From: Haemophilus influenzae
GTDB taxonomy: Bacteria; Pseudomonadota; Gammaproteobacteria; Enterobacterales; Pasteurellaceae
Assembly (NCBI RefSeq): GCF_001457655.1
Contig: NZ_LN831035.1
Location: 1,364,001-1,428,000 of the forward strand
Reading direction: 5' to 3'
Length of the DNA stretch: 64,000 nucleotides
Within the stretch, counting starts at the first letter, position 1. The number at the start of each line of letters is the position of its first letter. Under the pieces are notes generated by a model that worked only from the letters and a program-made list of their open reading frames with translations, had not been told where the DNA came from and ran no database searches. Of this stretch, positions 1 to 59,093 are shown piece by piece. Both the position numbers and the translations under genes were made by a program.

Positions 1-750
1 GCCGGAGTATGGCTCGAGCATTTCGACAATCAGGGAAACGATGGATTTCGGCGTGAAATATTGCCCGCCGCGTTTGCCTTCGGCTTGGGCAAAGCGACCG
101 AGGAAGTATTCGTAAACATGGCCGAGTATGTCTTTTGCACCTAAATGTACGGGCTCGCCGTTGTAAGTCGGGCGGGTAAAGTTAGTATCGGAGAAGAGGA
201 TAATCAGCCCGCGCAGGGTGTCTTCGTTTACGGCATAGCCGCTGATGCGTTGGAGGACGCCTTTGAGTTTTTCGTTGTCTTTTTCAATGGCATCAAAGGC
301 ATCATCAATCAGTTTTGCCACGCCTGAGAATTTACCACCCCAAGGTAATTCTGCACCAGTGTTGAGAATAGAGACTTCTTGTAAGGCTTGCCAACGTGCA
401 GAAGCGGGCACCCAAAATACGTTATCCGCGGTGTAATAATCACGGTTTTCTAGTTCTGCGGTTAAAGCTTCTTGATATTCTTCTTCAGTATCAAAAAAAG
501 TGCGGTCAAGATAGAGGGGATTTTCAGCATCAGAAAGTTCTGCCTGAATTTTTTCCTGTTGATGAGTGAAATTATCAGAAATGTATTTTAAGAAGATGAG
601 ACCAAGAACGATATGTTTATAGTTGGCGGCATCAAGTTGTTGGCGGAGTTTATCCGCAGATGACCAAAGTTTTTCGTCTAAATCGTTTAAAAATGCTTGT
701 TGTAATGTGTGATTTTCATCGACAATCTTGGTGTCTCGTCTCGCTTGCAT
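1..750 (-). CDS. hsdM: Type I restriction-modification methyltransferase subunit HsdM, N-terminal 250 residues (cut by window edge)
   Basis: Translating the minus strand from the ATG at 748-750 gives an open frame to base 1. It contains the HsdM N-terminal helical domain (about residues 20-60, including LDAANYKHIVLGLIFLKYIS) and the conserved block GGQYFTPKSIVSLIVEM near residue 235, which precedes the SAM-binding domain. The catalytic NPPF motif lies outside the window. HsdM methylates adenine as part of an HsdR2M2S complex; hsdS and hsdR are expected further left. It is divergent from rbfA, with 164 bp between the starts. Codons 3-6 contain two tandem copies of GAGAC, a rotation of the pentanucleotide GACGA that makes this gene phase-variable in some H. 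influenzae strains (from memory). The frame is open here. Confidence 0.93.
   Translation of the reverse strand, partial: MQARRDTKIVDENHTLQQAFLNDLDEKLWSSADKLRQQLDAANYKHIVLGLIFLKYISDNFTHQQEKIQAELSDAENPLYLDRTFFDTEEEYQEALTAELENRDYYTADNVFWVPASARWQALQEVSILNTGAELPWGGKFSGVAKLIDDAFDAIEKDNEKLKGVLQRISGYAVNEDTLRGLIILFSDTNFTRPTYNGEPVHLGAKDILGHVYEYFLGRFAQAEGKRGGQYFTPKSIVSLIVEMLEPYSG
733..743 (-). repeat. Residual pentanucleotide tract (two units) in hsdM
   Basis: On the minus strand the fourth base of codon 3 onward reads CGAGACGAGAC, two units of GAGAC plus one base. Only two copies remain, so slippage should be rare and the gene effectively locked on. This is a very short repeat and could be chance. Confidence 0.4.
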
Positions 751-3469: not shown

Positions 3470-4307
3470 ACTGTCTCGCCAATCTTAAATTTTCAGGTAA
3501 ATTCTCAAAATTAGAGCGGAATGGATTAATGTCTAATCCGCCACGACGAGTATAGCGTGCGTAAACGGTGAGTTTTTCTGGTTTTGCGTAGTGCATTAAA
3601 TCGCAAAAAATACGTTCGACACATTGTTCGTGGAATTCATTATGCTGACGGAACGATATAACGTAACGCAATAATTTTTCGTGATTGATTTTTTTACCAA
3701 CATAGTGAATATGCAAGGTGCCCCAGTCTGGCTGATTGGTAATGAGGCAGTTAGATTTCAATAAATGGCTGACTAATTTTTCTTCGACAATTTCATCCGA
3801 TACGCAATCTTTCAGCCAATTAGCGTTAAATTCGTAGCTAGTAATTTCAATATCTTGTTCATCAATGCAATCGCCTTGTAAATGCTCAATTTTTTGAGCA
3901 TCATAAACTGCCACTGGATTTAACCGCACTTTTACATCGCCTTGCGCACATTCGATTAAATCGCGTTGCATAGTTTGTTGAACGGCGTTGAAGTCGGTAA
4001 ATTTGCTTTGGTTAAAGCTATTTAAATAAAGTTTAAAACTTTTTGATTCAATCAAATTTTGGCTTTGATAATCCAGATAAATATCTGCGATAGCCACTTG
4101 CGGTAAGCCTTTTTCGTTGAGCCACGAGATTTCATAAGCCGTCCAAATATCTGCACCGATAGTAAATGGTTGGTTTTGAGTAATGCCCAATCCATCACGA
4201 TTTAAGGCGCGTGGCACAGGCTGTAATAAAGTGCGGTCATATTGAGAGGCGTATTCCGTTTTTTGACCGAGTTTTAAGGATTTTAAGCTGTTGTCTTGGT
4301 AATTCAT
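3468..4307 (-). CDS. queF: NADPH-dependent 7-cyano-7-deazaguanine (preQ0) reductase
   Basis: 279 residues, the two-lobed (YqcD-type) QueF length of enterobacteria. It reduces the nitrile of preQ0 to the aminomethyl group of preQ1 in queuosine synthesis. The QueF signature [11 protein letters not shown] is at residues 87-97 in the N-terminal lobe. The catalytic Cys187 is in [11 protein letters not shown] with the general acid Asp194. It is last in a minus-strand cluster, 126 bp after the zinc-ribbon gene, and the gap holds a dispersed repeat. No preQ1 riboswitch is recognisable before it. Confidence 0.96.
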
Positions 4308-48418: not shown

Positions 48419-48453
48419 ATCTATTTCATATCTATTGAGATTTAATTTATTTT

Positions 48454-51234
48454 CTAATAAGAAGCTGCTTTTAATATGCTGACAAATCTGCCTGATTTTT
48501 TTAGAGCTTTTTGCGCCAACGCATCTATTGTGGCTTTTGTCGCTAACTGATCTAAATGTTGATAGGTATAAATGGCATCTGGATTATCTTGTTGCCAGTA
48601 ACTTTCTTCAATAATCGAAGCAACTGAAACTAAAGAATCAAATTCACGTCGAATCTGAGTATGTTGTTCCGCTAGTTTTTTACGTAATAAATTTTCATCA
48701 ATGCCATTTTTTACAATATCATCTAGCACCTGATTTGTAAGATGCGTAAGTTCTTCTACTCGCTTAGGATCGCAACTAAATTCAATTTTTCCCTCAATTT
48801 GTGGTGTATGAACATCTTGCATAAACCAACTATTTACAGAATAAATCCCTGAAACTTTTTCACGTAGAATTAAGCGTAATTTTTCTTGCACAATATCAGC
48901 AAGAATATTGAATAAATATTTTTGTTCCGCTCGCCAAGTATTATCTGCGGTAAGGTATATTTCTACATCAGCTCTCGGTTCTTTCAAGCCATTCATAATA
49001 AATGATTGAGTTGGTGTATGAATAATAGTTGGGACAAAGTGACGTATCTGAGTTTTTGATTCAACTGAAGCTAAATAACGTTCTGCCAATTTCTTTACTT
49101 GATTAAGTTCAATATCGCCAATAATAAAATAGGTAAAATCTGTTTTATTTAAAATATAACGTTGATAAGCGTTACTTAATTGGTTTTTATCAAATGCTAA
49201 TTGCTGTGCTTGTTTTTGACTATAGACAGTTTCAATATTTGGAAAGCGTAGTTTTGAAACGGCTTGCATAAATTGTGTTTCTAAATCAATTTGTTTGAAA
49301 TAATCACGGGTTTCACGTCGATATTTTTCTAAGGCAAGATCGGATATAGGCGAAGAACGTAATTTTAAGCGGAACAATGTCAGTAAATTTTCCAAATCTT
49401 TAGGTTTAGATACACCAGTAAAACCTTGTTTATCATCATCAATCACAGTTGCAATTACCAATGGATCACGCGAAAAAATTTGATTAACTGCAGAAAGAGA
49501 AAGTTCTCCAACACCTGTTTCATCAACTACACTAACGGCAGCACGCAATAAGTGATAGTCCTTATCTGGGATAGAACGTAAACCACCTTTAGTAACAGCA
49601 CGAAAATGTACTTGATTTGGAGTTTTGTCACTATAGTGATAGATCAATTTACTTCCGTTACTTAAACGAAATTCATAAATATCGCCGCGATCCCAGTATT
49701 TTTCTTGGGAAAGTGAGCCTGTGTTAAATGTTAAGTGCGGTAATTTTTCGAGTTGTTTTTTTTCATCCCATTGATGTTGTTGCATTTTCATTGCATTGTT
49801 CCAACGAGTTTCTATTTCTACTACATCAAAAGGCAAGGCTTTTTGTGGCAAAGGTTGAGTGATTAATAATAATTTTGCTTTTAATACTAAGGTTTGATTT
49901 AACGTTCGTTGTAAATCAGCTAATGTAATTTGAGATAAAAAACGTTTATTGAGTTCATAACGATCATTTACGCTCAATACTACTTGCTTATTTGCCACAG
50001 AAGTAATGAGATCATCGGCAATTTTTAAACTACCAGAACGAATATTTAATTGTTTTTCATTGAGTTGAGTTAAGCGTTTAATCTCGCCGTTTAATTCATT
50101 TTGAGTAAAACCTTGTTGTTTTATACTGGCAATAAAGGCAAATAATTTATCTATCGTTTTTGAATATTGTGTATCTATAAGCTGGAGAGAAAAAATGCTT
50201 TGTAGTGTTTCTTTACCTAAATGAGTACGATAAAAATTTGCAGAATCTACGCCATTTTCTGTTTCCTTTTCCCATTTCTGTAAACGTAAGTTAAGCAATC
50301 GAGTGGTAATTTGCTGAATTAATTCTTGTTTATAACTCGCTAATGTATTGGTTTCAATTGTATTTTCAAAAAAACTTAATTCAATACTTGGAATTGTTGT
50401 GCCTTGTTCAGAAATAGAATCTAATCGCCACTTGTTGATAAGCGGAATATTAAAATCAATTTTTTCCAATGTTGTTTTAGTAATTGGGTTTTCTTGGGAT
50501 AGGTTTTGTTTTAATAGTTTTACTACTTGTTTTGTATCAATATCGCCTACAATAATTACTGACATATTATCTGGTCGATACCATTTGTGGTAAAAATCAG
50601 CGACGCGTTTAGCTGAAATTGTTTTAATAATATCCATATCTCCAATAGGATCACGCAATACATAACGAGATCCTGCCATTTCAATAGCACTTTTCTTATT
50701 GCCAATACGTAACATTGGGCTTAAACGTCTCCGCCATTCTTCTTGTACTACACCACGTTCGCCATCCACATCTTTAGGTAAAAAAGTAATATTATTCATC
50801 CATTCATTGATGACATCAAAAGCTAATTCTAATTTTTGCTGATTATTGCTATCTAAATTTAAAGTATAGACTGTATTTTCAAAATCGGTGAAAGCATTAA
50901 TATCTCGTGCAAATTTCATTCCAAGTTTTTCTAACGCATTAATAATTTGATTTTCTGGATATTTCTTTGAGCCATTAAATGCCATATGTTCAACTAAATG
51001 GGCAATGCCTTTTTGATCATCATCTTCGTGCATTGAGCCTGCATTAATTACTAATCGAATATAAACGCGTTCTTTGGGTTCAGTATTTTTTAATACAAAG
51101 TATTGCAAACCATTTGATAGTTTACCGTGCTGAATATTTGGATCAAAAGGTAAATCACTATTGGGCGATAGTTCCAAGGATTGACAAGCAATTAGTGAAA
51201 AGATAAGCAAAAAAAATGCGGTTGTTTTTTTCAT
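48454..51234 (-). CDS. M16-family zinc protease, predicted lipoprotein (PqqL/FusC-like)
   Basis: 926 residues, the size of two tandem M16 pairs. The N-terminus is a lipoprotein signal with lipobox LIAC, Cys17 lipidated. The inverted zinc motif HLVEH is at 79-83 (GIAHLVEHMAFNGSKKYP), and the distal Glu ligand lies in GERGVVQEEWRRR near 158. The C-terminal half is the inactive partner repeat, with FTYFIIGDIEL near 695. M16 enzymes cut unfolded or small proteins inside a closed clamshell. It sits downstream of a TonB-dependent receptor, as FusC does beside FusA, so cleavage of an imported protein is a reasonable inference. CTAGGT is its only ribosome site candidate, just after a hairpin. Confidence 0.9.
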   Translation of the reverse strand: MKKTTAFFLLIFSLIACQSLELSPNSDLPFDPNIQHGKLSNGLQYFVLKNTEPKERVYIRLVINAGSMHEDDDQKGIAHLVEHMAFNGSKKYPENQIINALEKLGMKFARDINAFTDFENTVYTLNLDSNNQQKLELAFDVINEWMNNITFLPKDVDGERGVVQEEWRRRLSPMLRIGNKKSAIEMAGSRYVLRDPIGDMDIIKTISAKRVADFYHKWYRPDNMSVIIVGDIDTKQVVKLLKQNLSQENPITKTTLEKIDFNIPLINKWRLDSISEQGTTIPSIELSFFENTIETNTLASYKQELIQQITTRLLNLRLQKWEKETENGVDSANFYRTHLGKETLQSIFSLQLIDTQYSKTIDKLFAFIASIKQQGFTQNELNGEIKRLTQLNEKQLNIRSGSLKIADDLITSVANKQVVLSVNDRYELNKRFLSQITLADLQRTLNQTLVLKAKLLLITQPLPQKALPFDVVEIETRWNNAMKMQQHQWDEKKQLEKLPHLTFNTGSLSQEKYWDRGDIYEFRLSNGSKLIYHYSDKTPNQVHFRAVTKGGLRSIPDKDYHLLRAAVSVVDETGVGELSLSAVNQIFSRDPLVIATVIDDDKQGFTGVSKPKDLENLLTLFRLKLRSSPISDLALEKYRRETRDYFKQIDLETQFMQAVSKLRFPNIETVYSQKQAQQLAFDKNQLSNAYQRYILNKTDFTYFIIGDIELNQVKKLAERYLASVESKTQIRHFVPTIIHTPTQSFIMNGLKEPRADVEIYLTADNTWRAEQKYLFNILADIVQEKLRLILREKVSGIYSVNSWFMQDVHTPQIEGKIEFSCDPKRVEELTHLTNQVLDDIVKNGIDENLLRKKLAEQHTQIRREFDSLVSVASIIEESYWQQDNPDAIYTYQHLDQLATKATIDALAQKALKKSGRFVSILKAASY

Positions 51235-51249
51235 TATTTTTACCTAGAA

Positions 51250-51286
51250 AAAAGAAAACTCTACGCTAAATAAAATAAGCGTAGAG
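51250..51286 (-). terminator. Hairpin terminator/attenuator between receptor and protease genes
   Basis: On the minus strand CTCTACGCT (51286-51278), a ten-base loop and AGCGTAGAG (51267-51259) form a perfect nine-base stem, followed by TTTTCTTTTTTC. It lies 51 bases after the receptor stop and 25 bases before the protease ATG. Receptor transcripts should mostly end here, with some read-through into the protease. Confidence 0.75.
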
Positions 51287-51337
51287 TAGGGCTGGTGGAT
51301 ATTTCAAAAGCCCACAAGCCCTATACATTGAAAAAAA

Positions 51338-53827
51338 TTAGAATTGATAGCCAATTTCTAGCCAAAATTCACGCCCAGGCGTATAAACACCATATTCATC
51401 GTTGGTGGAAATAGTAGTGACTTTATTTTTACGTGTTTTATTGAGAACATTTAAAATATCTACTTGCAAATAGACACTATGTTTACCACGAATGGTGGGT
51501 TGCCAACGAATGCTACTATCCCATTGTGTATGTCTGCCATAGTGATAGCTACGGAAACGTGAAATATCATCATTATTATTATCGCTATCAAGTTCTTCAT
51601 AGCTACGAATTGGTGCTTTCATATACACTTTATTTGACCAAGTAATATCGTAATCTGGTATCGTCATATCAATACCTAGACGAGCAATCCAATCTTCCGT
51701 GTTACTATTAACTTGTTGTAGCATTTGACTACGAGTCATTAATTTTCCGTCTAAATAGACGGGTTCATTTGGATTAAATTCATTACTTACATCAGCTCGT
51801 TTTGTATTTAACCAATCAAAACCAAGTGACGTAGTCCAATAAGTTTTACCTAATTTCCAAGGTTCTATATTGTTAAGCTGGAAAGTATAAATATCAACAC
51901 CGAATGGACGCCCATTAATATAACTACTTTTCTTTATTCCCCTTACAGTCTCTCCTCGTTTCAATATGATACGATTTTTATTATCACGATGAATATAACC
52001 GAGTTTCAGTGCTAAATTACCCATATTTTGGTCAAAACTTAAACTTAATTCATCTGCATAAGGGCTTTTTAGAGATGAAAAGTTTTGATGCTGACGTGTT
52101 GAATCATCATTAATCTTTAAGATTCTATTGGCTAATTTTAAAGAAGCAAAAGAACGACCATAATAACGATTTAAACCTAGTGTAAATCCTGTATCATCCC
52201 AAGGGTGATAACGTGCAACAAAGCGCGGGGCGATATTATTATTTTTTAAATAATCATCACGTTCAATGCGAATGCCTGGTCGAAACTCAAATTTACGCCA
52301 TTTAATTAAATCTTCAGCGTAAATACCGATATTTTGATAGCTGGTTTTAACACGACCTTTTGATGTTGTGCTTTCTGATAAAGAAAAAGGATCTATAGTC
52401 CCATCATTTTTCAAAGTAGATAATATTATTTTTGAATGAACATCCTGTGGACGATAGAATTGATATTTAGTTGCCTGATAAATTCCACCAATAGAAATAG
52501 AATGCTCGGTAGAAGCTAAATAAAAAGGATCCATCACATATTCAGTAGAAAAATGTAAATTATCTTGGGTTAAACGGCTATTACCATACCCGCCTTTTTC
52601 GAAATTATACAGTGGCTCACCATCTTGATTTGACACAGATGTTGTTTCAACATTATTTGAGGATGATTTACGCTTATCTTTAAAACGATCGTATGCTAAA
52701 GTATTTGTCCAAACGCCAGAGTCAAATGAATGCACCCAAGCAAGCGTTGATCCCAATGCTTGATGATAATCGCTTACATTGTTACCTATATTTTCCTTGA
52801 AATATTTCAATTCTTTATAATTTGAATAACGTAAACCGAGTTCAATACGTTCTTTTTCTTGCGGTGTCCAATTGAAATTTAATAAAAGATTATCGGAAAG
52901 TCGTTGATGATTTTGTTTGTCTAGTTGCGCTTTGTTATTGGCATTTTTATCAAAGCCAATTAAACGATTTTGTTCAATAGATGATGTTCTGCGACTATAG
53001 CCAAAAACCATTCCTAAATTATCATTTAGTCTTTTTTCAGCCAAAATATTGAATGTTTGTTTATTGTATTTAGGTTGTAACTCTGCCGCACCAGAATCAT
53101 CGGGTCTTACTTGTTTAAGTATTTTTTGTACTGAGTCTCCAGCTTCCATTTTTGCCCAAGAGGAATTTGTCGTGCGATATTTAAGTTTTATGCTATCAGT
53201 GCCGCTATATTGTTTTGTTTTGGCGATAACTGCCCCTCCCATAAATCCCCCTAAGCTAGCAGAAATATTACTATCTTGTACTTCTACTTTAGAAAGCATA
53301 GTCGCATCAAAAAAATAAGCTTGAGTGTGACTAATTCCTGGCACAACTTGCATAGCACCGTCAAAAATACTGCTATCAATAGCAAGATCATTATTTATAT
53401 TGACATTATCAACAAAGTAGGCGGTTTGATTTGGATCGGCGCCGTTAATTGAAATATTTTCAGGCTTGATTTCACCACGTTGAAAACCATTTTGGTCGCT
53501 ATTTTCATAACGAATATGGGGATTAGAACGAAGGTAATCAGTGATATTACCATTTGATGTAGGCGTTTTACTTATCTCGTCAGAAGAGAGCGTTTTAACG
53601 GAAGAAAGCGATTTATTATTGTCGCCATAAACAACAATTTCGGGCAATATATTTTTGTTGGTTGTTGGTTGTTGGTTGTTGGTTGTTGGTTGTTGGTTGT
53701 TGGTTGTTGGTTGTTGGTTGTTGGTTGTTGGTTGTTGGTTGTTGGTTGTTTCAGCAGTTTGCCCCATAATAAATGGACTGGCAAATGTTGAGCAGAATAA
53801 CAACATTAATGGCTTTTTTTGATACAT
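51338..53827 (-). CDS. TonB-dependent outer-membrane receptor, phase-variable
   Basis: 829 residues. Signal peptide [19 protein letters not shown] with probable cleavage near 22-25; a QQPTTNN repeat at about 26-58; a TonB-box-like EIVVYG at 63-68; a plug domain (about 70-220: [40 protein letters not shown]); and a 22-strand barrel ending [10 protein letters not shown], with the terminal Phe expected for BAM insertion. The substrate is unknown; there is no heme-receptor motif I can point to. A Fur box lies 32 bases before the ATG. The repeat is encoded by a heptanucleotide tract, so copy number sets the frame; it is in frame here. An M16 protease gene follows. Confidence 0.93.
53655..53750 (-). 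repeat. Heptanucleotide tract, 13 full copies, in the receptor gene
   Basis: On the plus strand TTGTTGG is repeated 13 times from 53655 to 53745, then TTGTT. On the coding strand the unit is CAACCAA. Because 7 is not a multiple of 3, gaining or losing one unit shifts the frame; three units change the protein by seven residues. The tract lies between signal peptide and TonB box, where length changes should be tolerated. Confidence 0.97.
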
Positions 53828-53858
53828 AGTATAGTTCCCTAAAATAAAAGATAGAAAT

Positions 53859-53877
53859 AAGAATGATTATCATTATA
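53859..53877 (-). promoter_or_regulatory. Fur box of the TonB-dependent receptor
   Basis: The minus strand reads TATAATGATAATCATTCTT, 16 of 19 matches to GATAATGATAATCATTATC. It is 32 bases upstream of the receptor start, where it should block transcription when iron is plentiful. Confidence 0.85.
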
Positions 53878-53938
53878 TTTTTAAAATTTATGAATACAAG
53901 GGGGATTCGACTTAAAATAGGTATCAAAGAAATAAAAA

Positions 53939-57075: not shown

Positions 57076-58032
57076 ATGAAAGAATATAAAACAATAGATT
57101 TGTTTGCTGGAATTGGTGGCATTCGTCTAGGTTTTGAAGCATTTGGATGTAAAAACGTATTTTCATCAGAATGGGATAAGTATGCTCAAAGTATGTATGA
57201 AGTAAATTTTGGCGAAAAACCTTTTGGAGATATTAATGATATATCTCCTAGCGATATACCAGATCATGATATTTTACTTGCTGGATTTCCTTGCCAACCA
57301 TTTAGTATTGCTGGTAAAGGATTGGGCTTTGCTGATACTAGAGGAACATTATTTTTTAATATAGAAGCAATTTTGAAAGCTAAAAAACCAAAAGCTTTTT
57401 TGCTGGAAAATGTAAAAATATTAACAACACATGATAATGGTAATACATTTAAAGTTATTAACGATAAATTAAATAAGTTAGGATATACGGTATATCATAA
57501 AGTATTAAATACCCTTGATTTTGGATTACCACAAAAAAGAGAGCGAATTTACATTGTGGGTTTTTTAGATAAATTGCATTTTGAATTTCCAAAGCCTATA
57601 GGAAAGTATGAAGAACTTTCTAATATATTAGAGAGTGATGATGTTGTTCCTAATAATTATTTTCTTTCAGATGAACTAAAACGGAAAAGATTAAGTTCAA
57701 TTACTAAAGATGTGCCTTATCCTTCAATTTGGCATGAAAATATTTCAGGAAATGTTTCTGCTCTTCCATACTCTTGTGCATTAAGAGCTGGGGGAAGTTA
57801 TAATTATCTAGTTGTAAATGGGGTACGTCGATTAACTGGGCGAGAAATGCTAAGATTGCAAGGATTTCCAGATACTTTTGAAATTAATATACCTTATTCT
57901 CAGGTACGTAAAGTTGCTGGCAATTCAGTTAGTATTCCTGTAATTAGGGCTATTGCTGGTTCAATGATTAATAGTTTAAATATGGCAACGCCTAAAATAA
58001 ATCAAGCAATTCAACTTTCATTATTGGACTAA
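57076..58032 (+). CDS. DNA (cytosine-5) methyltransferase of a type II R-M system
   Basis: 318 residues with m5C motifs in canonical order: I DLFAGIGG (8-15); IV GFPCQPFS (70-77) with catalytic Cys73; VI ENV (111-113); VIII QKRERIYIVGF (153-163); IX RRLTGREMLRLQGFP (251-265); X GNSVSIPV (282-289). The target-recognition region (about 164-250) is short, suiting a single short target. It begins 12 bases after mukF. I suspect RGCGCY (HaeII-type) specificity from protein sizes and location, by recall rather than comparison. AT-rich, with no uptake signals. Confidence 0.93.
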   Translation: MKEYKTIDLFAGIGGIRLGFEAFGCKNVFSSEWDKYAQSMYEVNFGEKPFGDINDISPSDIPDHDILLAGFPCQPFSIAGKGLGFADTRGTLFFNIEAILKAKKPKAFLLENVKILTTHDNGNTFKVINDKLNKLGYTVYHKVLNTLDFGLPQKRERIYIVGFLDKLHFEFPKPIGKYEELSNILESDDVVPNNYFLSDELKRKRLSSITKDVPYPSIWHENISGNVSALPYSCALRAGGSYNYLVVNGVRRLTGREMLRLQGFPDTFEINIPYSQVRKVAGNSVSIPVIRAIAGSMINSLNMATPKINQAIQLSLLD

Positions 58033-58034
58033 AA

Positions 58035-59093
58035 ATGAACGATATTCAAGTAGCAAAAGAATCTTTAGATAAAATTATAAAGAAAGCAAGAGTACATTTA
58101 TACAAGCCTATACAAATTGCTGAAATTCTTTATCAAGATAGAGTTAATAAAAATATTAATTTATTAGATAAAGAAACATATCGAAATATTTCTAAAAAAT
58201 GGCGGGATGTTATTTGTATCCGTTTTTTAGGAAGAGTATCAACATCGTCAGCTAAATATCAAGACGATTTATTTAATGATAACGCTATGCCTCCCAAACA
58301 TTTAAATATATTAGGAGAAATGAATAGAAAAACAAATGGTGGAGTAGAAAGTTATATTTATAAAAAGTTTTTTGAACGCTTTAATCAGATGTCATCAGCC
58401 TTAGAGTATAGTTATTCTCGTACTCCAGATAATTTTCATCTAAGTGAATTTCTTGCTCTTTTTTGGTTAGAACCCGGTTTAAAACGAAGTATTGATAAAG
58501 TTTATGAAATAGTTGTTTATGCGTTGTTTTCATCTTTAATAGAGGCTTTAGGCGTTAAAGTAAAAATTGATTTAGATTTATCGAATATTGATTTGTTAAA
58601 GGAGTTTGAAGATTTTACTCGTCAAATTATTTCTCTTGATAGTGAGAATACTAGTTTGGAACTTAATGCAAAAATTAATAGAGTTGGTGTAACAAATGCT
58701 TCAGATCGGGGTTTGGATATGTGGGCTAATTTTGGTATGGCAATTCAAATAAAACATTTATCATTAACTGAAGAATTAGCTGAAAACATTGTATCTTCAG
58801 TTTCATCTGACCGAATAGTTATTGTATGTAAAGAGAGTGAAGAAAAACTTATTTTGTCTTTATTAAATCAAATTGGTTGGCGTTCTAAGATTCAGAGTAT
58901 TATCACTGAGGCAGATCTAATAAAATGGTACGATAAAGCATTGCGCGGGAAATCTGCATATTTAGTGGGAAGCAAGATATTAGAACATATCAGAAATGAA
59001 ATAAGTTTAGAATTTCCTGCAACCGATATAGTAGATTTCAATCACTTTTTTCATGAATGTGAATACAATAAAGCATTAGATATTGAGAAATAA
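58035..59093 (+). CDS. Putative type II restriction endonuclease (HaeII-like)
   Basis: 352 residues, two bases after the methyltransferase gene, so tightly coupled. A plausible PD-(D/E)xK active site is GLD228 followed nine residues later by Q238-I-K240 (DRGLDMWANFGMAIQIKHL), the Q variant seen in several restriction enzymes. Pairing with an m5C methyltransferase makes it the cognate endonuclease. Length and location fit my recollection of HaeII, not checked. Low G+C, no uptake signals, intact. mukE starts three bases after its stop. Confidence 0.75.
   Translation: MNDIQVAKESLDKIIKKARVHLYKPIQIAEILYQDRVNKNINLLDKETYRNISKKWRDVICIRFLGRVSTSSAKYQDDLFNDNAMPPKHLNILGEMNRKTNGGVESYIYKKFFERFNQMSSALEYSYSRTPDNFHLSEFLALFWLEPGLKRSIDKVYEIVVYALFSSLIEALGVKVKIDLDLSNIDLLKEFEDFTRQIISLDSENTSLELNAKINRVGVTNASDRGLDMWANFGMAIQIKHLSLTEELAENIVSSVSSDRIVIVCKESEEKLILSLLNQIGWRSKIQSIITEADLIKWYDKALRGKSAYLVGSKILEHIRNEISLEFPATDIVDFNHFFHECEYNKALDIEK

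Follow-up and report, generated by a model that had tools for sequence, protein, structure and literature searches.

A probable protein-import pair of Haemophilus influenzae: a FusA/YddB-family receptor with a repeat tract and an M16 protease predicted to be lipid-anchored

The window analysed here, a stretch of 64,000 nucleotides from Haemophilus influenzae (contig NZ_LN831035.1, positions 1,364,001 to 1,428,000), carries on its minus strand two neighbouring genes encoding a TonB-dependent receptor and, downstream of it across a gap of 103 nt, an M16 protease. The original prediction for this locus was a candidate system in which the receptor imports a small iron protein that the protease cleaves at the envelope. 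Published work is cited by accession and drawn on through parts of each paper, for which the statements about it hold.

51338..53827, minus strand: FusA/YddB-family TonB-dependent receptor (829-aa open reading frame (ORF); Pfam Plug, 8.1e-10; sequence and Foldseek comparison)
48454..51234, minus strand: M16 protease, predicted lipoprotein (926-aa ORF; Peptidase_M16, 2.9e-38; M16_C, 2.3e-50)

The pair is taken as the orthologues of HI1369 (receptor) and HI1368 (pqqL, protease) of strain Rd KW20, because the repeat unit, the pqqL neighbour and the gene order agree; the locus numbers of the flanking genes used for the gene order are those we assume for Rd. No NCBIfam model reached its cut-off with either protein.

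Compared with the sequences of the Protein Data Bank (PDB), the receptor gave YddB (5.5e-62) and FusA (5.4e-46) as its sole matches at E up to 1, and the same two proteins lead by a wide margin the Foldseek list of its predicted model, in which a plug region and a barrel of about 22 strands (counted by hand) can be made out. FusA is also the top match when the model is ranked by VIA. Judged by sequence and model, the protein is a FusA-family TonB-dependent receptor, and the plug and barrel attributed to it by the original prediction were both recovered. The plug is preceded by a short motif, kept in most Pasteurellaceae sequences of the receptor alignment (A2), which we take to be the TonB box.

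53234..53617, minus strand: plug domain, residues 71-198 (Pfam)
53624..53641, minus strand: TonB-box-like EIVVYG, residues 63-68 (alignment of receptors)

The motifs FRAP and NPNL, which mark heme receptors, were looked for in the receptor and neither is present. Together with the closeness to YddB and FusA in sequence and fold, this argues against an ordinary heme or siderophore receptor that happens to lie beside an envelope housekeeping protease, a reading regarded as rather unlikely. It draws support from the fact that many small-ligand receptors score as high as YddB by VIA's Z, and from the postulated role of HI1369 as a redundant mediator of free-heme uptake (PMC2627913). Import of PQQ through PqqU (signature Y/F/W99, R304, R365) was considered as a more specific rival and dropped, since PqqU is YncD and not YddB; the PqqU structure 9c4o stands 25th in the Foldseek list of the receptor.

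The alignment of the window receptor with 120 relatives (121 sequences) has 571 invariant columns out of 763, and six stretches of it are variable at a cut-off of 0.45 bits per 10-residue window (288-303, 394-411, 461-491, 621-638, 680-691 and 740-763). All six map to outer loops when strands are counted on the predicted model; the long loop at about 557-589 is not among them. Such variation among close relatives, as under surface attack or antibody pressure, would suit a protease that guards the receptor, destroying bacteriocins or phage proteins that hijack a wide-bore receptor rather than processing food. The ferredoxin uptake system is parasitised by pectocins (PMC7593965), which also speaks for a guard. 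Against it stands the finding that cells need FusC to gain iron effectively from ferredoxin, even though the protease was reported to give no help in import (PMC7593965). We also know of no bacteriocin for the window receptor, no search aimed at one having been made, and a purely protective role is considered very improbable.

The protease has as its nearest full-length relatives, in sequence as in fold, PqqL, an M16 protein of P. gingivalis and FusC. These matches and those of the receptor bear out the relation to FusA/FusC and PqqL proposed at the outset, and the 926-residue length, the lipobox and the zinc motif on which that proposal relied were all confirmed.

51184..51195, minus strand: lipobox LIAC with Cys17 and Gln at +2 (motif, alignment)
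50986..51000, minus strand: zinc motif HLVEH, residues 79-83 (motif, alignment)
50737..50739, minus strand: Glu166, counterpart of the third zinc ligand E167 of PqqL (alignment; ligand table of PMC12731061)

Glu166 is invariant in the protease alignment (A1, 17 chosen full-length sequences), and in sequence and predicted structure the protein conforms to a single-chain, full-length M16 protease of the PqqL/FusC type, with HxxEH and a distal Glu. Its N-terminus reads MKKTTAFFLLIFSLIAC-QS. Cys17 is likewise invariant in A1, and a lipobox-like cysteine was recognised by eye in 20 of 20 named orthologues, Muribacter having the unusual LVQC; an Asp directly after this cysteine occurs in none of the 20. 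In E. coli, the residues that follow the lipoprotein cysteine tell outer from inner membrane, and the protease is predicted to be anchored in the outer membrane, at its periplasmic face. Among wider protease matches, six (P0123, P0138, P0139, P0161, P0214 and P0228) have a missing N-terminus or a different start. The main texts of PMC6793856, PMC6071955 and the 2025 M16 review nowhere use the word "lipoprotein", and none of the titles and abstract openings listed from open-licence papers for HI1368/HI1369, pqqL or M16 proteins reports the anchor.

Between the signal peptide and the TonB box of the receptor, its ORF contains 13.7 perfect tandem copies of a 7-bp unit, a repeat that outscores every other in the window by a wide margin and was overlooked in the original prediction.

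53655..53750, minus strand: heptanucleotide tract, 13 AACAACC units on the coding strand, in frame (ON) (repeat scan; published for HI1369, PMC2651432)

The true start of the receptor is placed upstream of this tract because a signal-peptide-like start before it and EIVVYG after it are conserved in relatives. With a unit of 7 bp, each unit gained or lost shifts the frame. Beside the 13 units of the window, tracts of 4, 7, 4 and 1 units were counted in four other genomes, all with open receptor frames; eleven sequences had been put in, among which L001 is the window itself, L028 has a receptor stretch identical to that of L006, and L008, L009, L027 and L029, without tandem tract, missed the start pattern. 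Published AACAACC numbers are 1 in Rd, 1 in R2846 and 7 in R2866 (full-length ORFs in Rd and R2866), 13 within HI1369 of strain 22.4.21, and 8, with a frameshift, in R3655 (Power et al. 2009, PMC2651432). Strain 86-028NP has 6 units near a TonB receptor gene, taken as the HI1369 counterpart, whose broken ORF was put down to a frameshift unrelated to the repeat (PMC2651432). A simple rule fits these numbers, namely that the receptor is ON when the number of units is 1 mod 3: tracts of 1, 7 and 13 units are open, that of 8 is closed, and one of 6 would be off. In the 120 database receptors the linker mostly holds 0-4 copies of NNQQPTT, with an odd residue in at least six of them (P0008, P0016, P0025, P0030, P0032 and P0041); off alleles go uncounted in this set because its members were found as near-full-length proteins. 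The tandem tract was not seen in H. seminalis, H. quentini or the other genera examined. The in-frame state of the window tract is observed, and its position and unit length suggest that the receptor is phase-variable by tract slippage.

A scan of genome contigs with the protease alignment yielded 583 relatives, and the best 80 of these were taken further. Each of the 20 closest (at least 39% identity), from Pasteurellaceae, Vibrio, Shewanella and Photobacterium, is preceded by a receptor homologue in the same orientation, whereas the other 60, far more distant M16 proteins and some with short flanks, show a receptor match in a single case, on the opposite strand. Approached from the receptor, 68 of 140 family genomes have a match at E 1e-3, a number that includes low-complexity matches and distant paralogues; in 40 of the 68 the receptor is about 49% identical or more over most of its length, and every one of these 40 genomes has the protease downstream of it in the same orientation. 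These 40 genomes represent 41 loci, 31 at which 1.5 kb beside the receptor was viewed and 10 more, G082 having its receptor in two pieces; a 103-residue receptor fragment in G024 stands outside the count. Close receptors and proteases, whose co-occurrence in Pasteurellaceae the original prediction proposed to survey, were never separated where viewed (20/20, 31/31 and 10/10), with family proteases lacking a receptor assessed solely through the best-80 scan.

Within the genus, both genes are found in 7 of 10 genomes and neither in the other 3. In two of the pair-less genomes (G002 and G004) the thrS side, ending at window position 48423, is joined to position 53932 through 27 nt of filler, from which it follows that both genes were gained or lost as one block.

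48424..53931, no strand: block holding both genes, absent as a unit from the related genomes G002 and G004 (genome comparison)

Adjacency in 40 of 40 genomes and gain or loss as one block both tell against a chance neighbourhood of a heme or siderophore receptor and a housekeeping enzyme. The third pair-less genome, of the same species (L154, G006), has a surface-adhesin-like gene after thrS instead, with a frame presumably like the extended signal region found in trimeric autotransporter adhesins, and the site after thrS seems to exchange cargo.

More divergent receptors make up about 32 of the matches (E 1e-57 to 1e-30). Ten were fetched (L168-L177), 22-27% identical by tblastn, and 7 of the 10 have an M16 gene beside them. 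They form a second, divergent FusA-like receptor class in Pasteurellaceae, 5 of the 7 M16-linked loci also carrying a YddA-like gene after the M16 gene. Some loci appear damaged. The protease lies in pieces beside the receptor at G005:C1:1603904-1606680, G001:C15:48638-51416 and L166, through assembly error or decay; in L026 (H. haemolyticus M19501) the receptor match, at about 3918-4190, lacks its first third and its frame runs into unrelated sequence, with the protease intact. G001, which has two copies of the pair and 6% contamination, resembles L026 and may mix strains. In L036 and L178 (Histophilus somni and a like genome) the receptor match comes in two pieces, suggesting a frameshift.

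The Fur box of 16/19 reported upstream of the receptor by the original prediction is present, and the gap between the genes holds two hairpins, of which the terminator-like one had escaped it.

53859..53877, minus strand: Fur-box-like site, 16/19, beginning 50 nt upstream of the receptor ATG
53866..53894, minus strand: possible sigma-70-type promoter overlapping the Fur box, weak, 9/12 (motif scan)
51288..51323, minus strand: upstream hairpin in the gap, AGGGCT..AGCCCT (folding)
51248..51287, minus strand: terminator-like hairpin ACTCTACGCT/AGCGTAGAGT with T-run, directly before the protease start (folding)

The Fur-like site is the only match of the window with at most 3 mismatches, where a mean of 0.06 is expected and 5 of 100 shuffles had at least one. 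Promoter-like sites in the region number 30 against 27.8 expected in shuffles, which is not above chance. Fur-like sites, at a threshold of at least 14/19 and with p no higher than 0.02 in mononucleotide shuffles, stand before 12 of 18 receptors and none of 17 proteases (best score 13/19), with L026, L036 and L043 left out of the receptor count for an unclear start and L037 out of the protease count. The 116-nt stretch around the gap has a fold z-score of -5.6 against shuffles, and the terminator-like hairpin with its T-run stands just before the ribosome-binding region of the protease; a general hairpin scanner (loops 3-8) omits it, its loop being 10. By one rule, a terminator-like hairpin of differing sequence occurs in 14 of 18 Pasteurellaceae gaps, near-duplicates included, against 0.28 expected; it was not found by this rule in H. 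seminalis, H. quentini, H. somni and C. flavescens. The loci L036 and L178 have almost no gap and no hairpin before the protease, and in L145 and L146 the gap measures 215-274 nt and contains long inverted repeats, like a small inserted element.

HI1369 is iron/heme-repressed in five strains (array values -10.65, -1.56, -7.02, -8.04 and -1.70), and in two strains its expression rises about 30-fold in the chinchilla ear (PMC3879429). HI1368 is listed as "ns" on the arrays of R2866 and 10810, with quantitative PCR (qPCR) values of +1.67 and -1.60 in one table, a second table giving +2.24 and +1.29, and in Rd with -1.86 and -2.42, that is, higher under limitation (PMC2627913). Of the iron regulation foreseen for the pair, the receptor's share is upheld by the Fur box and the published arrays, whereas that of the protease looks weak, given the array and mixed qPCR results and the hairpin in the gap. 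The terminator-like hairpin offers a reason for weak iron control of the protease.

Partners for later steps were sought around the pair and in the genome. YddA-like ABC transporters, with a SbmA_BacA Pfam match and 6tqe as nearest solved structure, lie between receptor and protease in Vibrio, Shewanella and Photobacterium. A YddA-like match was also met in 9 of 20 fetched family stretches, several of these matches being cut by the stretch end. Seven lie downstream of the protease in the same orientation, of which L165 and L167 have a close receptor and five a divergent one, the match in L172 being short; the other 2 face the protease. These clustered transporters would suit a pair that imports a non-iron peptide or cofactor carrier, which the protease trims and a YddA/SbmA-type transporter passes to the cytoplasm, Fur control then reflecting the host niche and not iron in the cargo. 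Set against this are the Fur-like site before 12 of 18 receptors and the lack of a linked transporter in Haemophilus, and this cargo is held to be improbable. No transporter is found among the ORFs beside the window pair, and no FusD counterpart was met; the genome's one full-length YddA homologue is unlinked, next to a mreB-like gene, and was rejected as a specific partner, being present in 10 of 10 genus genomes including the 3 pair-less ones. Its best Fur-like match is 13/19. This homologue is presumably HI0036. The published modulon passages name HI0035, not HI0036. The whole genome has one TonB_C (PF03544) match, at C1:811210-811434, outside the window, and a FusB-like second TonB was not seen by PF03544, although a homologue beyond the reach of that model is possible.

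Taken together, the data are best explained, and with fair probability, by an import receptor that is phase-variable and under Fur control, paired with a processing protease anchored in the outer membrane, the Pasteurellaceae form of the FusA/FusC and YddB/PqqL kind. In this model, Fur would leave the receptor promoter under iron or heme limitation, and slippage of the 7-bp repeat between signal peptide and TonB box would flip receptor synthesis on and off. Powered by the single TonB found in the genome, the receptor would take in a small protein or large peptide, which the lipid-tethered protease, at the predicted periplasmic face of the outer membrane, would capture and cut near the exit, freeing iron or a cofactor. 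The protease is placed after entry, at the membrane, because of the reported inability of FusC to facilitate import, and for the same reason a Brownian-ratchet role, tempting as it is for an anchored protease, was not adopted. The hairpin before its start would hold the protease below the receptor and loosen co-regulation. A separate pathway would carry the products over the inner membrane; a YddA-like ABC transporter is linked to the pair in some related loci. A bolder version, offered tentatively and as unlikely, is a phase-variable whole-protein importer in a human-restricted bacterium, in which the tethered protease at the periplasmic mouth of the receptor takes the polypeptide directly, filling the pulling or capture role of FusB, and the tract, besides switching the receptor, lengthens the link between mature N-terminus and TonB box in seven-residue steps.

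Several observations weigh against the import-and-processing model. The receptor model is of moderate quality (pLDDT 74.6), and by VIA's Z YddB comes 24th, amid BtuB and siderophore receptors. The lipid anchor is not special to the pair, since 6 of 11 distant M16 proteins (P0230-P0240) show a lipobox-like motif too. No M16 gene lies beside 3 of the 10 divergent receptors, and in two genus copies (G005 and G001 C15) the receptor frame is open next to a fragmented protease gene interrupted by stops, so that the receptor may work without the protease or the protease gene may be decaying. Human ferredoxins and globins were not cleaved by E. coli PqqL, and YddB and PqqL, according to a section heading, give no growth support under iron limitation in LB media (PMC6793856). 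HI1368 does not appear clearly iron-regulated, a point which, like the hairpin separating the genes, also favours the heme or siderophore alternative. Finally, a GC-rich hairpin is found between E. coli yddB and pqqL as well, though PqqL is iron-induced. A simple terminator silencing the protease was rejected on this ground in favour of attenuation, and the hairpin more likely sets the ratio of receptor to protease than severs their link.

Elsewhere in the window, positions 57076-59093 hold, after a mukF-like gene, a cytosine-5 DNA methyltransferase-like frame followed by a 352-aa frame, which look to us like a restriction-modification pair.

To our knowledge, a protein cargo is established for one importer of the FusA family alone, that of plant pathogens for ferredoxin. 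Since the pair described here is homologous to it, belongs to a human-confined bacterium and is strongly expressed in the infected animal ear, the search for a substrate narrows to host or resident-microbe proteins. The clade-wide lipid anchor gives testable grounds for expecting the two proteins to be co-localised at the membrane, and with the frame rule the on/off state of the receptor could be read from genome data. The import idea, the iron/heme repression and the repeat of HI1369 are largely in print already. To these the present analysis adds the anchor shared across the clade, the position of the tract and the rule for its reading frame, the hairpin in the gap together with the Fur asymmetry, the gain or loss as a block, and the trio loci.

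Phase variation of a TonB receptor through a repeat tract after the signal peptide is familiar from the hemoglobin receptors HgpA, HgpB and HgpC of H. influenzae, which differ in their CCAA tetranucleotide and their receptor family and are not known to have a protease partner. The HI1369/HI1368 literature agrees with the window in repeat unit, pqqL neighbour and iron/heme regulation, but treats repeat, regulation and import idea apart, and the lipid anchor and gap hairpin do not figure in the parts consulted. Among the FusA clusters that include FusC homologues, the Haemophilus cluster ranks with the four largest described by Grinter in 2019, who proposed protein import for it with a host protein as the likely cargo in obligate human bacteria (PMC6793856); the window locus would belong to this cluster. 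The Fus system of Pectobacterium (FusA-FusC-FusB-FusD) shares a receptor and an M16 protease of the same families. Unlike it, the window locus has no linked TonB homologue or ABC transporter and no assigned substrate, that of Fus being known, and FusC is predicted to be periplasmic with an ordinary 25-residue signal (PMC6071955), whereas the window protease is a predicted lipoprotein. The E. coli yddA-yddB-pqqL operon resembles the pair in having adjacent genes for a receptor and a protease related in sequence and fold, a hairpin in the gap and published Fur control (PMC6793856). It differs in the yddA gene linked beside yddB, in the absence of a repeat tract before the plug, and in PqqL itself, which is soluble and not found with the outer membrane (PMC6793856) and has no cysteine at its cleavage site or lipobox; the distinction that the original prediction drew between a lipid-anchored protease and a soluble relative holds, as lipobox prediction against published solubility, in this comparison.

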